Below, piece after piece: positions 48,144-58,635 of a stretch of DNA of 64,000 nt. The notes beneath the pieces are model-generated. The model was not told the origin of the DNA, searched no databases, and saw nothing but the letters and a program-made list of their open reading frames with translations. Position numbers and translations under genes: made by a program. The stretch's first letter is position 1, and the number at the start of each line of letters is the position of its first letter. The stretch is from Brenneria sp. hezel4-2-4 (lineage in GTDB: Bacteria > Pseudomonadota > Gammaproteobacteria > Enterobacterales > Enterobacteriaceae). Location: assembly GCF_013155275.1 (NCBI RefSeq), contig NZ_JABJXS010000002.1, positions 372,001-436,000 on the forward strand, read 5' to 3'.

Positions 48144-48208
48144 GGATTGTTACTGCGCAAGCAGGCAAGACCAGATATCCGCTCTCTCTGCGGGTGTCTG
48201 GTTTTTTT
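48144..48208 (+). promoter_or_regulatory. Ribonucleic antiterminator and terminator 1 of the bgl operon
   Basis: GGATTGTTACTGCGCAAGCA followed by GGCAAGACC (48144-48172) is almost the E. coli bgl RAT. It overlaps a terminator, CCAGATATCCGC...GCGGGTGTCTGG plus seven T (to 48208). Dimeric, dephosphorylated BglG would bind the RAT and prevent terminator folding when beta-glucosides are transported. Confidence 0.92.
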
Positions 48209-48223
48209 GTTTCCAGGGTATGA

Positions 48224-49072
48224 ATGATGAAAATTGCCAAGATACTCAACAATAATGTCGTAACGGTTATCGACGAAAATAATAATGAGTCGGTTGTGAT
48301 GGGCCGGGGGCTTGGTTTTAAAAAACAGACTGGCGATCGGTTGGACGAATCGCTGATTGAGCGCGTGTTTGTCATGAAAAGCGGGGAGTTGACATCGCGC
48401 CTGCGGGAACTGCTGTCGGAAATCCCGCTGGACGTGATCACCACGGCGGATAAAATCATCTTGCTGGCGAAAGAGCGTCTGCCGGGAAAATTGCAAAACA
48501 GCATCTACATTTCGTTGACGGATCACTGCCATTTCGCGATAGAGCGCCATAAGCAAGGCGTCAATATCCGCAATGTATTGCTGTGGGAAATTAAGCGGCT
48601 TTACCCGAAAGAATTTGCGGTTGGTTTAGAAGCGCTGGATATTATCGAGCAGCGTCTGGCCGTTCGTTTACCCGAGGATGAAGCCGGTTTTATTGCGTTA
48701 CATTTAGTCAATGCCCAGCTTGACAGCGAAATGCCGGAAGTGATCCATATTACGAAAATCATGCAGGAGATACTGAATATTGTGAAGTATCAGTTGAACC
48801 TGGATTATGATGAACAGGCATTAAGTTATCATCGTTTCGTTACCCATTTGAAGTTTTTTGCGCAACGGCTGATCGGCAAGAATACGGTATTCAGTGATGA
48901 TGAATCATTACATGATGTCATTAAAGAAAAATACCAACTTGCCTATCATTGTGCGGAGAAAATACAAAGTCATGTCGAGCAGCAATACCGCTATATATTG
49001 ACCAAAGAGGAGTTGATGTTTCTGACGATCCATATTGAAAGAGTGAGAACCGAGTTGCTGGAAAAACAGTAA
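48224..49072 (+). CDS. bglG: Beta-glucoside operon transcriptional antiterminator BglG
   Basis: RNA-binding antiterminator. The 282 residues (ATG 48224, or 48227 one codon later) begin with the RNA-binding CAT domain ([31 protein letters not shown], split here as residues 2-32). Two PTS-regulation domains follow with conserved histidines in [11 protein letters not shown] and in [10 protein letters not shown] of PRD1, and [12 protein letters not shown] and LTIHIERVR of PRD2. BglF is expected to phosphorylate and inactivate it without substrate. Flanked by RAT/terminator modules on both sides, the classic bgl arrangement. Confidence 0.93.
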
Positions 49073-49191
49073 AACATTATGTGAGAAATTTGCTTTTCAT
49101 CACATAATCACAATGATGTTGATATAATCGACTTGCATTAGCGTTACGACGGCGAATAAACTCTATTGCAGGATCGGATTTACTAAAATCA

Positions 49192-49295
49192 GGATTGTTA
49201 CTGTAACACTGAATATGAGTGATACAGGCAAAACCTAAACCGTTTTTTTCTTAATGACCACCGTGGTGGCGAGAAAAATGGTTTGGGTTTTTTTT
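49192..49295 (+). promoter_or_regulatory. Ribonucleic antiterminator and terminator 2 between bglG and bglF
   Basis: GGATTGTTACTG...CAGGCAAAACC (49192-49235) is a RAT whose two conserved ends are separated by about 21 bases (TAACACTGAATATGAGTGATA) instead of the usual few. The terminator AAACCTAAACCGTTTTT / AAAAATGGTTTGGGTTTTTTTT ends at 49295. It gates bglF and the genes after it. Confidence 0.85.
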
Positions 49296-56209: not shown

Positions 56210-56263
56210 TCTTTTATTCACATCGTGTGATGAATAAGAAACACAAGAATAGAGGATAAAATT

Positions 56264-57454
56264 GTGCTGATGAAAATGAAAAAACCCTCGCTCTCGCTGC
56301 TGGCCTTTTGCGTGCTCGCGGGGGGAGCCATAAATGCATCTGCGTTGCCGGCGGATTTTCCGGCTTATCCGCAAATGGCTATCCCGGTCAGTCAATACGT
56401 GACCGGGGTTAACCCGGATAACAGTATTACGTTCCGGTTATTTGCGCCTACGGCGAAAAAAGTCAGCGTATTCACCGGGGCGACGCCAGAAAGTCTTGCC
56501 TCGCATGCCATGACCAAAGATCAGAACGGAGTCTGGTCTTTCCAGACCCCGCCGCAACAACCCAATTTATATGAATACTTTTTCAATGTTGACGGGTTCC
56601 GCAGCATTGATACGGGAAGCGCTTTCACCAAACCACAGCGTCAGGTGAACACCAGTCTGATCCTGGTGCCGGGCAGCATTCTGGATGTGCGTCAGGTGCC
56701 GCATGGCGAGCTAAGAACCGTAACCTACCATGCCAAGACGCTGAAATCCGAGCGGCAGATGTTTGTCTGGACGCCGCCCGGCTATAGCGAAGCGTCCGAA
56801 CCGCTTCCGGTGCTCTATTTCTATCATGGGTTTGGCGACACCGGCGCGTCCGCCGTCGTTCAGGGACGGATCCCGCAAATCATGGATAACCTGTTGGCGG
56901 AGAAAAAGATAGTCCCGATGCTGGTGGTCATTCCCGATACCGAAACGGATATCCCGGAGGCGATACCTGAAGATTTCCCGCCACAGGAGCGGCGTAAAGT
57001 TTTCTATCCGCGTAATGCATTGGCAGCGGATAAAGAACTTATCCATGACATTATTCCTGAAATAAGTCAGCGGTTTAATGTTCGCAAGGACGCCGACGGC
57101 CGGGCGCTGGCCGGGTTGTCGCAGGGCGGCTATCAGGCGCTGGTCTCGGGGATGAGCCATCTGGCGCATTTCGGCTGGCTGGCGACCTTCAGCGGCGTCA
57201 CCACGGAAACCGTACCGAATGCCAACGTTTCCGCACAGCTCGAACGGCCGGAGGAAATTAACCGCCAACTGAAGAATTTCACCGTTGTCATCGGGGAAAC
57301 GGATGGTGTGACAGGCAAGGATATCGCCGGATTAAAGACCATGCTTGAAAAGCAAGGGGTGCGGTTTGACTCTATTTCCTACCCGCAGTTGGGACATGAA
57401 ATGGATGTTTGGCGTCCTGCCTATAGCGAGTTTGTGCAGAAACTTTTCAAATGA
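56264..57454 (+). CDS. Exported CE1-family esterase, feruloyl-esterase-like
   Basis: The 396 residues have a signal peptide ([22 protein letters not shown]) and an N-terminal immunoglobulin-like early-set domain (about 45-135, [16 protein letters not shown]). An alpha/beta-hydrolase of the esterase D/CE1 type follows. The nucleophile is S286 in [11 protein letters not shown] and the histidine is H378 in [19 protein letters not shown] forms the oxyanion region. Related enzymes release ferulic or acetyl groups from plant polymers. The start may be GTG 56264 (AGAGGA 7 bases before) or ATG 56270. It probably deacylates substrates for the downstream glycosidases. Confidence 0.8.
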
Positions 57455-57588
57455 TTTTCGGATATTGGCTCATTGCGTCAGGCATCGCTTCCCACGTTCG
57501 GCGGGGAAGCGGCCTGAACGTATGACGACTCAAACAGGCGGCCAAGAACAGATGACTTGCCGATAACTATCTACTTACTATCAAGGAA

Positions 57589-58635
57589 ATGAACCTGACT
57601 ATGGTTATTAACAATCGCTTTTCTCTTTGGATCGCCAATACGGGCCGCAGCCTGGCGGCGGGGGTATTGGCGTGCAGCGCCTTTTCCGTTTCCGCCGCGC
57701 CGCAAACGCTGCCTTTTGATGTCGCGCCGCACAAGCAGGTTCGCGTGATTATCAGCACTGATGCCAAGAATGAGGCAGACGACGATTTTGCCGTGGCGCA
57801 TGCGGTGCTGACGCCGACCATGAACGTCAAAGGGCTGATTGCCGCTCACTATTCGCAAACGGCGCCGATGATGCAGCGCGATGCTGAAAACAGCATGATG
57901 GAAAGCTATAAAGAGTTGCAGCATTTGATGAAGGTGATGGGGAAAACCGCCATTCCGGTCTATCGCGGCGCAACGCAGGCGCTGCAAAAGGGAGAAACCA
58001 CGCCGGAATTGAGCGAAGGCGCAAAAATGCTGATCGAGGAAGCGCTGAAAACAGACAGCCATCCGCTGTTTGTGCTGGTCATGGGGCCCATCACCGATGT
58101 CGCCGCCGCGTTGCGCGCGGAACCCCGCATTGCTTCCAGGATGACGGTGGTATGGATCGGCGGCATGCCTTATCCGAAGGGCGGCTGGGAATACAATATG
58201 TTCAACGATCCGATTGCCGCAAACGACGTATTTAAATCGCAGGTTCCGCTGTGGCAAGTGCCGCACAACGTCTATATGTCGGTTCGGGTCTCACTGGCGG
58301 AGCTGGCCGCCCGGGTCAAACCGCAAGGTGAAGTCGGGGAATACCTGTGGCAGCAAATGATCGATTTTAATACGATGATTTCCAAGATCATCAAAGATGT
58401 GCCCTGGCCGAAAAGCGAAGTGTGGGTATTGGGAGACAATCCCTCGGTGTCTCTGCTGCTGGACGATCACGAATACAACTATACGTTGCGCGACGCGCCG
58501 CAGTTAAATGACGATCTCACCTATGCTCCACAACCGAATGCACGCCAGATCCGGGTGTATAACGCGGTGGATACGCGTTTCACGCTGGAAGACTTTTACG
58601 CCAAGCTGGCATTGGCCTATGGCGCGAAGCACTAG
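57589..58635 (+). CDS. Exported nucleoside-hydrolase-like protein
   Basis: The 348 residues have a signal peptide (SLAAGVLACSAFSVSA, cleavage about residue 36) and a nucleoside-hydrolase fold. The calcium-binding motif reads TDAKNEADDDFAVAHAV instead of the DTDPGxDDA of classic inosine-uridine hydrolases, as in a distinct exported subgroup. LFVLVMGPITDVAAAL and GGMPYPKGGWEYNMFNDPIAAN, with the C-terminal acidic pair, are family-like. The ATG at 57589 sits very close to AAGGA; ATG 57601 is an alternative start. It is the last gene of the plus-strand block. Its substrate in a glycoside operon is unknown. Confidence 0.72.
   Translation: MNLTMVINNRFSLWIANTGRSLAAGVLACSAFSVSAAPQTLPFDVAPHKQVRVIISTDAKNEADDDFAVAHAVLTPTMNVKGLIAAHYSQTAPMMQRDAENSMMESYKELQHLMKVMGKTAIPVYRGATQALQKGETTPELSEGAKMLIEEALKTDSHPLFVLVMGPITDVAAALRAEPRIASRMTVVWIGGMPYPKGGWEYNMFNDPIAANDVFKSQVPLWQVPHNVYMSVRVSLAELAARVKPQGEVGEYLWQQMIDFNTMISKIIKDVPWPKSEVWVLGDNPSVSLLLDDHEYNYTLRDAPQLNDDLTYAPQPNARQIRVYNAVDTRFTLEDFYAKLALAYGAKH

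Follow-up and report, generated by a model that had tools for sequence, protein, structure and literature searches.

A bgl gene block in Brenneria carrying genes for a predicted exported rhamnosidase and a nucleoside hydrolase-fold protein

Gene order and RNA control sites

The ORF list and Pfam/NCBIfam comparisons place seven genes of a bgl block on the + strand, at 48224-58635 of the window (the whole 64,000-nucleotide stretch analysed), in Brenneria, a plant-associated genus. Their products are, in order, a BglG/LicT antiterminator, an EIIBCA beta-glucoside phosphotransferase system (PTS) protein, a GH1 6-phospho-beta-glucosidase, a GH78 enzyme, a LamB-type porin, a CE1-type esterase and a PF01156 nucleoside hydrolase-like protein (hereafter NH). 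From bglA onward, the intergenic gaps measure 80, 128, 54 and 134 bp, with the porin start at ATG 54590. An earlier sequence-only reading had described seven same-strand genes with these gaps, as ORF coordinates and families bear out. It had also ascribed export signals to the last four products, whose N-termini, judged by eye, are hydrophobic as expected of such signals. The features are as follows.

48011-48026, + strand: CRP-like site TGTGA-N6-TCACT, one mismatch to TGTGAN6TCACA
48144-48172, + strand: RAT1, predicted BglG/LicT RNA-binding site (RAT-type pattern match)
48167-48208, + strand: terminator t1, overlapping RAT1, 5' of bglG (16-pair stem, then a T-run)
48224-49072 (start maybe 48227), + strand: bglG/licT, antiterminator (LicT model, 400.7 bits, cut-off 300)
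49192-49235, + strand: RAT2-like site with a longer loop, read from the sequence
49230-49291, + strand: terminator t2, bglG-bglF gap (fold of 49190-49300)
49370-51253, + strand: bglF, EIIBCA beta-glucoside PTS (NF007335, 1046.1 bits, cut-off 894)
51295-52698, + strand: bglA/bglB, GH1 6-phospho-beta-glucosidase (start by eye; TTG 51250 in the ORF list)
52779-54461, + strand: GH78 alpha-L-rhamnosidase of KoRha type, predicted exported, MNRRELL N-terminus (Pfam, alignment)
54590-56209, + strand: bglH, LamB-family porin with Sugarporin_N (Pfam, comparison with E. coli)
56264-57454, + strand: yieL/bglI, CE1-type esterase with a CBM48-like N domain (Pfam, comparison with E. coli)
57478-57517, + strand: hairpin without U-run, CE1-NH gap (z -2.23)
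57589-58635 (start maybe 57601), + strand: NH-fold protein, exported-looking (Pfam, motif alignment, Foldseek)

In E. coli, BglG bound at RAT sites allows read-through of terminators in the presence of a BglF substrate. In Brenneria, a RAT and a terminator lie on both sides of bglG, and the pairs are kept in 8/8 aligned loci of the genus, as are RAT1 and the RAT2 pattern GGATTGTNACTG...CAGGCAAAACC individually. RAT1 is the sole match in the window (0 in 100 shuffles) to a RAT-type pattern that was drawn up partly from the 48144 region itself, and that misses RAT2. Against Rfam RF03530, RAT1 scores 19.7 bits and RAT2 28.3 bits, the gathering score of 80 being reached by neither. The t1 region (48144-48210) folds at -31.4 kcal/mol (z -4.97) and the t2 region (49190-49300) at -38.0 kcal/mol (z -4.78), with 0/200 shuffles as good in each case. 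Because two conserved RAT/terminator pairs flank bglG, antitermination can be proposed, BglG acting at the two RAT sites to carry transcription past both terminators when BglF has substrate. In the E. coli operon, such pairs likewise surround bglG. The block outlined by the sequence-only reading began at 48144, which is the first base of RAT1, 80 bases 5' of bglG. The E. coli operon is subject to H-NS silencing and CRP activation. The CRP-like pattern occurs twice in the window against a chance expectation of 1.19 and is weak taken alone; by eye, a TGTG...TCAC pair is present in five of the eight aligned loci (the window, L090, L091, L092 and L096) and absent from L001, L020 and L095.

Downstream of bglA, the pattern scan found a single + strand terminator-like site in the four gaps (a 5-pair stem, 54492-54505). 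Folding, which covered the three gaps other than that of 54 bp, gave a hairpin without U-run between bglA and GH78 (z -5.40), a z of -1.05 before bglH, and the listed CE1-NH hairpin. The start of the latter, TCAGGCATNNCTTCCC, has a second copy at 58718, 3' of NH, and flanks this gene on both sides; its interpretation as a genome-wide repeat was discarded, the genome holding just these two copies. These hairpins in two gaps, together with the 128 and 134 bp spacings, raise the possibility of several transcription units, in which bglGFB would be antiterminated, GH78-bglH-yieL and NH would have promoters of their own, and NH would be an unrelated nucleoside scavenger. We regard this arrangement as improbable. 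No + strand promoter-like site was found by a simple sigma-70 pattern in the four gaps, and further evidence on it comes from relatives and from NH itself (see below). The RAT1-type pattern, an insensitive test in that it misses RAT2, gave no third RAT before GH78, bglH or NH.

Two additions to the E. coli gene set

The gene order bglG-F-B-H-yieL is that of E. coli bglGFBH-yieL(bglI)-yieK(bglK), with 54-74% protein identity: 54% for BglG, 57% for BglF, 74% for BglB (bglA product), 56% for BglH and 69-70% for YieL. The bglG product also exceeds the NCBIfam/Pfam BglG model cut-off (341.5 bits, cut-off 322), and its CAT_RBD and two PRDs lie above curated cut-offs. The porin falls below the NCBIfam maltoporin cut-off (220.6 vs 394) and is instead BglH-like. 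The esterase shares the nucleophile elbow GLSQGG with YieL, and scores 101.6 bits against a curated feruloyl esterase model whose cut-off of 1200 is that of a longer bifunctional protein. In E. coli, bglH and yieL already follow bglGFB (PMC2646131). The porin and the esterase were accordingly rejected as novel additions; the description of the operon as "extended" holds for GH78, absent from the E. coli operon and located here between bglB and bglH, and for NH, which occupies the position of yieK. Among the loci compared, the CE1 gene is intact only in the window, and a C-terminal relic lies between bglH and NH in genome G002. A new insertion in the window was set aside, as this one relic favours loss elsewhere.

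The GH78 protein contains the GH78 N domain and the 6-hairpin catalytic domain (Pfam). It is identical to KoRha, the GH78 enzyme of Klebsiella oxytoca (PDB 4xhc), at 239/507 aligned residues and keeps 10 of 11 of its active-site (ligand or catalytic) residues, W335 being aligned with D361. D248 corresponds to the KoRha acid D222 and E522 to the base E486. The pN/pS ratio against B. izbisi is 0.14. KoRha, described as exo-acting and as having a spacious chamber for the aglycone, converts rutin to isoquercitrin in vitro (PMC4690510). The MNRR N-terminus, a candidate Tat signal with a twin arginine before a hydrophobic stretch, is found in 13 loci. GH78 probably removes rhamnose from plant glycosides in the space outside the cytoplasm. 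Lipoprotein signals were considered for GH78 and NH and rejected, the N-terminal Cys not being conserved.

NH matches PF01156, the family of the IU nucleoside hydrolases RihA and RihB, at 77.9 bits (cut-off 34.2), and all 50 PDB matches listed by Foldseek are nucleoside or riboside hydrolases, for a structure model of modest quality (mean pLDDT 62.2, pTM 0.66). Residues 52-177 also match PF07632, the Sde182 NH-like family, at 38.1 bits (cut-off 26.8), below the PF01156 score, and the C-terminal domain of Sde0182 is missing. The hallmark of nucleoside hydrolases is an N-terminal DXDXXXDD motif (PMC3608555). NH lacks it and has S56-x-D58-x-K60-N61-E62-A63-D64-D65-D66 in 13/13 aligned sequences, with the first Asp replaced by Ser and a longer spacing. 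It further differs from the IU enzymes by its signal-like N-terminus and by its porin and glycosidase neighbours. The absence of the hallmark speaks against a nucleoside scavenger under separate control, as does the occurrence of glycosidase genes within 8 kb of NH relatives in 5/7 plasmid neighbourhoods chosen from 25 records.

The altered motif also recalls HopQ1, an NH-like effector of Pseudomonas, in which the Asp motif is likewise changed and for which assays reportedly detected no hydrolysis of nucleosides (PMC3608555). That NH of this plant-associated genus targets the plant, as proposed for HopQ1, instead of serving bacterial feeding, is nevertheless very improbable: its hydrophobic N-terminus looks like one for Sec export, and NH-type genes lie behind a porin gene in three contexts: bglH in the window, OprB at loci L098 and L122, and, in L094, a porin preceding a more distant NH-like protein. 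The latter, in another bgl cluster of the window's genome, is a full-length Sde182 NH-like member. NH orthologs were found in 1/274 genomes of the wider class, the window's own (E<=1e-15), and, at 60% identity or above, in 4/149 genomes of the family, the window's own included. A search of titles found no paper naming a substrate for this exported, porin-associated branch.

Recurrence of the gene order and two classes of GH78

The order bglG-bglF-bglB-GH78-bglH-NH recurs, well above chance, in eight other loci, from B. izbisi, four Lonsdalea, Acerihabitans, an Enterobacterales MAG and genome G002; two Lonsdalea drafts have split frames, in bglF (L004) and in bglA (L008). The distance from the bglH stop to NH is just 46 bp in Lonsdalea L003 and 24 bp in Acerihabitans L007, which argues against a separate NH unit, whereas a terminator-like hairpin, seen by eye between the two genes in B. 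izbisi and B. salicis, argues for one. GH78 is broken or lost in five of the eight genus loci that keep bglGFB-bglH (one broken frame, three remnants, one without trace), and NH is retained in 3/5 of these. Thus, the operon can be kept without GH78.

A survey of 392 genomes of the family gave 22 GH78s at E<=1e-50, which split into a twin-arginine/porin class and a GPH-symporter class. Eight start with MNRR and are followed by a BglH-like porin 46-100% like that of the window, with no GPH symporter within the flank examined; five of them, matched by coordinates, are loci L001, L003, L005, L007 and L008. The 14 others lack the MNRR N-terminus, and a GPH symporter is directly adjacent in 14/14, the symporter query having been taken from L098, itself one of the 14. 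In the same way, the KoRha-like genes of 16 loci are next to a GPH symporter and their products lack a twin-arginine N-terminus, whereas the GH78 of the window has MNRR and sits in a PTS operon. Because the classes largely correspond to two clades, the 8/14 split does not represent 22 independent events. Associations vary around this division. An MNRR GH78 accompanies a PTS and GH1 on a Klebsiella plasmid (L055), and another has rhaT and a sugar kinase gene as neighbours (L110). No PTS is nearby at the MNRR loci L109 and L110, and L006 has just bglG/bglF remnants. On a K. quasipneumoniae plasmid (L056), near IS903 and a GH1 fragment, a GH78 without MNRR is accompanied by a porin and no GPH symporter.

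A possible route for capped beta-glucosides

The explanation towards which we lean is that a bgl operon (bglG-F-B-H-yieL) was enlarged by an exported rhamnosidase and an exported NH-fold enzyme, for glycosides with a capped beta-glucose. The BglH-like porin would let these glycosides through the outer membrane. Outside the cytoplasm, as their families suggest, the YieL-like esterase would remove acyl groups and GH78 terminal rhamnose, by analogy with KoRha on rutin; the NH enzyme might, more speculatively, trim another, perhaps furanosyl, cap. BglF would then take up and phosphorylate the freed beta-glucoside for splitting by the 6-phospho-beta-glucosidase, steps known for both families. In PTS uptake, phosphorylation occurs mostly at the 6'-position (PMC5698550). 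Because the glucose O6 of a rutinoside bears rhamnose, a 6-deoxy sugar, no primary hydroxyl would be available to the PTS, and on chemical grounds GH78 would have to act outside the cytoplasm. For 1,2-linked neohesperidosides, trimming before uptake would be needless, which would count against this reading.

Entry, deacylation and derhamnosylation before PTS uptake had been put forward by the sequence-only reading, with acylated flavonoid rutinosides as one possible substrate. The gene block, the KoRha-type GH78, the sugar porin and the beta-glucoside PTS are in line with that route, even if the porin and the esterase are no extensions. In L109, an exported-looking tannase-family esterase, unrelated to the YieL-like one, directly precedes GH78-porin, which favours deacylation combined with derhamnosylation. 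That NH is an exported O-glycosidase, acting for example on apiofuranosyl or arabinofuranosyl caps, and that NH, GH78 and the YieL-like esterase work outside the cytoplasm as a "decapping" set which readies glycosides for a phosphorylating transporter, is an unlikely, tentative extension. To our knowledge, such an activity would be new for the nucleoside hydrolase superfamily.

Alternatively, the exported enzymes may act on pectic or hemicellulosic fragments (rhamnose of rhamnogalacturonan, feruloylated arabinoxylan), the bgl link reflecting shared induction by plant material only. Several ferulic acid esterases with the same pair of domains are among the CE1 relatives of known structure, and NH relatives lie beside GH43, GH3 and DUF5597 genes on Novosphingobium plasmids. 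R13 Fae, a Rahnella protein described as a YieL ortholog, is reported as an accessory xylanase-esterase that freed xylobiose and xylose from xylan; as described there, its signal peptide, CBM48 and esterase domain resemble the layout of the YieL-like esterase (PMC9195170). Because activity on xylan is reported for this ortholog, the alternative was weighted up and the capped-glucoside explanation down. We nevertheless hold it to be rather unlikely: Pfam finds no polygalacturonase, pectate lyase or GH10/GH11 xylanase among the seven genes, the exo-action and aglycone chamber of KoRha point elsewhere, small beta-glucosides suit a PTS with a phospho-beta-glucosidase, and the L055 plasmid also associates an MNRR GH78 with PTS and GH1.

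The capped-glucoside explanation would link plant diglycosides to a sugar operon with a long history of study. It also offers a testable chemical rule, in which phosphorylating uptake goes with a rhamnosidase outside and symport with one inside, and it draws attention to a branch of exported proteins within the nucleoside hydrolase superfamily, which accompanies porins and plant-glycoside enzymes. Literature searches returned nothing combining rhamnosidase, phosphotransferase system and rutinose and, judged by title, no operon joining a rhamnosidase with bglF.

The freed rhamnose could enter through RhaT and feed the rha pathway; rhaA, rhaB, an aldolase gene and rhaT are present together in the window's genome. 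A co-occurrence of GH78 with rhaB was considered and dropped, the genomes being too few (rhaB above cut-off in 3/3 with intact GH78 and 3/6 without). B. izbisi carries the six-gene form, and its description lists fermentation of arbutin, esculin, salicin and L-rhamnose (PMC9730526).

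The bgl gene block and its setting

Seven + strand genes fill positions 48224-58635 of the window (ORFs, Pfam/NCBIfam), which belongs to a genome of 4.54 Mb in the genus that includes Brenneria izbisi (L001, G004) and, judging from agreement of coordinates, B. salicis (L020, G008). The block and the BglG/LicT RNA-binding sites (RAT) that accompany it are as follows.

48144-48172, + strand: RAT1, overlapping terminator t1, before bglG
49192-49235, + strand: RAT2-like site, overlapping terminator t2, before bglF
48224-58635, + strand, in order: bglG/licT, bglF, bglA (bglB-like), GH78 (exported-looking alpha-L-rhamnosidase), LamB-type porin, CE1-type esterase, PF01156 nucleoside-hydrolase-like protein (NH)

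In the one E. coli genome compared, the region reads bglG-bglF-bglB-bglH-yieL-yieK; bglH is the fourth gene, and passages of one report place yieL (bglI) and yieK (bglK) presumably in the same operon (PMC2646131). By BLASTP, the window proteins are 54% identical to BglG, 57% to BglF, 74% to BglB, 56% to BglH and 69% to YieL. Because of the BglH and YieL matches and the content of the E. coli operon, neither the porin nor the esterase is unusual for a bgl operon. Thus, the extended operon proposed in the sequence-only reading holds for GH78 and NH, but not for these two genes. Compared with E. coli, the window adds GH78 between bglB and bglH, and NH occupies the place of yieK. The block is a variant of the known bgl operon.

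The t1 and t2 folds were better than those of 200/200 shuffles (z -4.97 and -4.78), and the RAT1 and RAT2-like sites are kept in 8/8 aligned loci of the genus. At these sites, the Rfam bglG element scored 19.7 and 28.3 bits, and the gathering score of 80 was not reached. Taken singly, a CRP-like site at 48011 is not above chance. Before bglH (54520-54589), a short inverted repeat with a TTCC-type stretch was seen by eye, also present in the same gap of L001 (B. izbisi), L020 (B. salicis; both arms altered), L090 and L091; it is a possible leader element. Hairpins at 57478-57517 and 58718-58758, one on each side of NH, start with TCAGGCATNNCTTCCC, of which the searched genome holds no further copy. 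By eye, the bglH-NH gap of L001 (13478-13631) and L020 (12248-12400) contains a terminator-like hairpin with a T-run.

Upstream and divergent lie genes for a peptidase-containing ABC exporter and an HlyD-type adaptor (44240-47633, - strand; by eye from ORFs). Downstream and convergent are a galactonate-type MFS transporter and an L-talarate/galactarate dehydratase (58786-61531, - strand; NCBIfam), a pair with homologs near the GH78-GPH symporter genes of L111 and L112. The RprA sRNA lies at 27240-27351 (- strand; Rfam, 81.3 bits).

GH78, its transport partners and the proposed uptake route

The nearest solved relative of the window GH78 is Klebsiella oxytoca KoRha (4xhc; 239/507 aligned residues identical). 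Among the 11 active-site residues named for KoRha in passages of PMC4690510, 10 are kept, including the acid D222 (D248) and the base E486 (E522); the exception is W335, aligned with D361. The same paper reports conversion of rutin to quercetin-3-glucoside by KoRha.

The twin-arginine start MNRR was found in 13 of the GH78s examined (window, L001-L008, L055, L090, L109, L110). At E<=1e-50, 392 family genomes yielded 22 GH78 genes in 21 genomes, and since MNRR and non-MNRR enzymes mostly form two clades, these are not 22 independent tests. Eight of the 22 have MNRR, no GPH symporter in the examined flanks and, downstream, a porin that matches the window's at 46-100% identity where the two align. 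The other 14 lack MNRR in the printed open frame, some start codons being uncertain, and a GPH symporter is directly adjacent in 14/14 (13 newly fetched loci plus L098, the source of the symporter query). One of these, L117, has a stop within the GH78 match, and several have a nearby LamB-like porin just 21-26% like the query porins. Outside this survey, L057 and L059 match the GPH-symporter pattern; L002, L004, L006, L055 (porin upstream of the PTS gene) and L090 have MNRR without the symporter; L056 fits neither class, having an adjoining porin and neither MNRR nor symporter. The rule that these patterns suggest, with GH78 export tracking the kind of transporter, is worth testing.

PTS genes lie near GH78 in 10/13 MNRR loci, with remnants in L006 and none at L109 and L110, which show that a nearby PTS is not obligatory for an MNRR GH78. 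In L110, the GH78-porin pair has rhaT, an aldehyde dehydrogenase and a sugar kinase that looks rhaB-like by eye in its vicinity; in L109, the pair follows a tannase-family esterase. As judged from gene content, both loci support the view that rhamnose would be set free outside the cytoplasm and that GH78 is paired with an esterase.

In a rutinoside, the glucose O6 is already substituted, and the rhamnose, being a 6-deoxy sugar, has no O6 at all. Since PTS uptake phosphorylates mostly at the 6'-position, according to passages of PMC5698550, rhamnose would have to be removed before uptake, a step that GH78 would carry out. The window's genome has clustered rhaA, aldolase and rhaT genes, and also rhaB. 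PMC9730526 describes B. izbisi as fermenting arbutin, esculin, salicin and L-rhamnose but neither amygdalin nor cellobiose; this profile, on substrates other than rutin, agrees with a bgl system.

Conservation, esterase and NH protein

The order bglG-F-B-GH78-bglH-NH also occurs in B. izbisi, four Lonsdalea, Acerihabitans, one MAG and G002; none of these loci has an intact esterase gene. Two drafts have a gene in two frames, bglF in L004 (Lonsdalea britannica, 6596-8481) and bglA in L008 (L. iberica, 8513-9902), by decay or sequencing error. In K. indica (L006), GH78 and porin are present, bglG and bglF are remnants and NH is absent. Within the genus, 8/9 genomes have a bglGFB-bglH locus (G007 without a porin match). 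Among these eight, GH78 is intact in three (G000, G002, G004), frame-broken in G003 and reduced to a remnant in three (G005, G006, G008). NH is intact in six and reduced to a remnant in G006; neither gene was seen in G001. Against B. izbisi, pN/pS is 0.14 for GH78 and 0.15 for NH, similar to bglF (0.14); the porin (0.31) changes fastest among the genes compared.

An intact esterase was found only in the window's genome (nine genus genomes searched); G002 keeps a relic of about 40 C-terminal residues in the bglH-NH interval. The solved structures closest to the window's esterase are of CE1 proteins that carry a CBM48-like domain, and several of these proteins are ferulic acid esterases. A YieL ortholog reported to act on xylan (Rahnella R13 Fae; PMC9195170) is evidence at least as strong for a hemicellulose substrate as for acylated glycosides. 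We still lean towards a bgl operon enlarged by an exported GH78 and an exported NH-fold enzyme for capped plant beta-glucosides, slightly less so because this evidence points to hemicellulose too.

NH scores 77.9 bits with PF01156 and 38.1 with PF07632. Its 13 aligned sequences keep S-x-D-x-K-N-E-A-D-D-D, not the DXDXXXDD described as the hallmark of nucleoside hydrolases in passages of PMC3608555. With a modest model (pLDDT 62.2), the 50 structure matches listed were nucleoside or riboside hydrolases. Orthologs lie behind bglH in the window; in G111 (L098) and G625 (L122), they follow an OprB porin that is divergent from GH78-GPH. Glycosidase genes occur within 8 kb of NH relatives in 5/7 plasmid neighbourhoods picked by choice from 25 records (L103-L106 and L108, not L102 and L107), L103 and L105 being alike and to be counted as one. 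From sequence and context we infer that the substrate is probably a glycoside, not a nucleoside; this exported branch is worth testing.

A full-length Sde182-type relative of NH is also encoded in the window's own genome, in a second bgl-type cluster, bglA-bglF-bglG-porin (L094, 4107-15728, contig C1), where its ORF follows and overlaps the porin gene. The cluster continues with a radical SAM/SPASM protein that may be a sulfatase-maturing enzyme, and with a sulfatase whose N-terminus is signal-like; this content suggests sulfated beta-glucosides as substrates. A third set (L093, 5040-10181, contig C30) comprises GH1, a Gfo/Idh/MocA-type gene, another ORF and a BglH-like porin.
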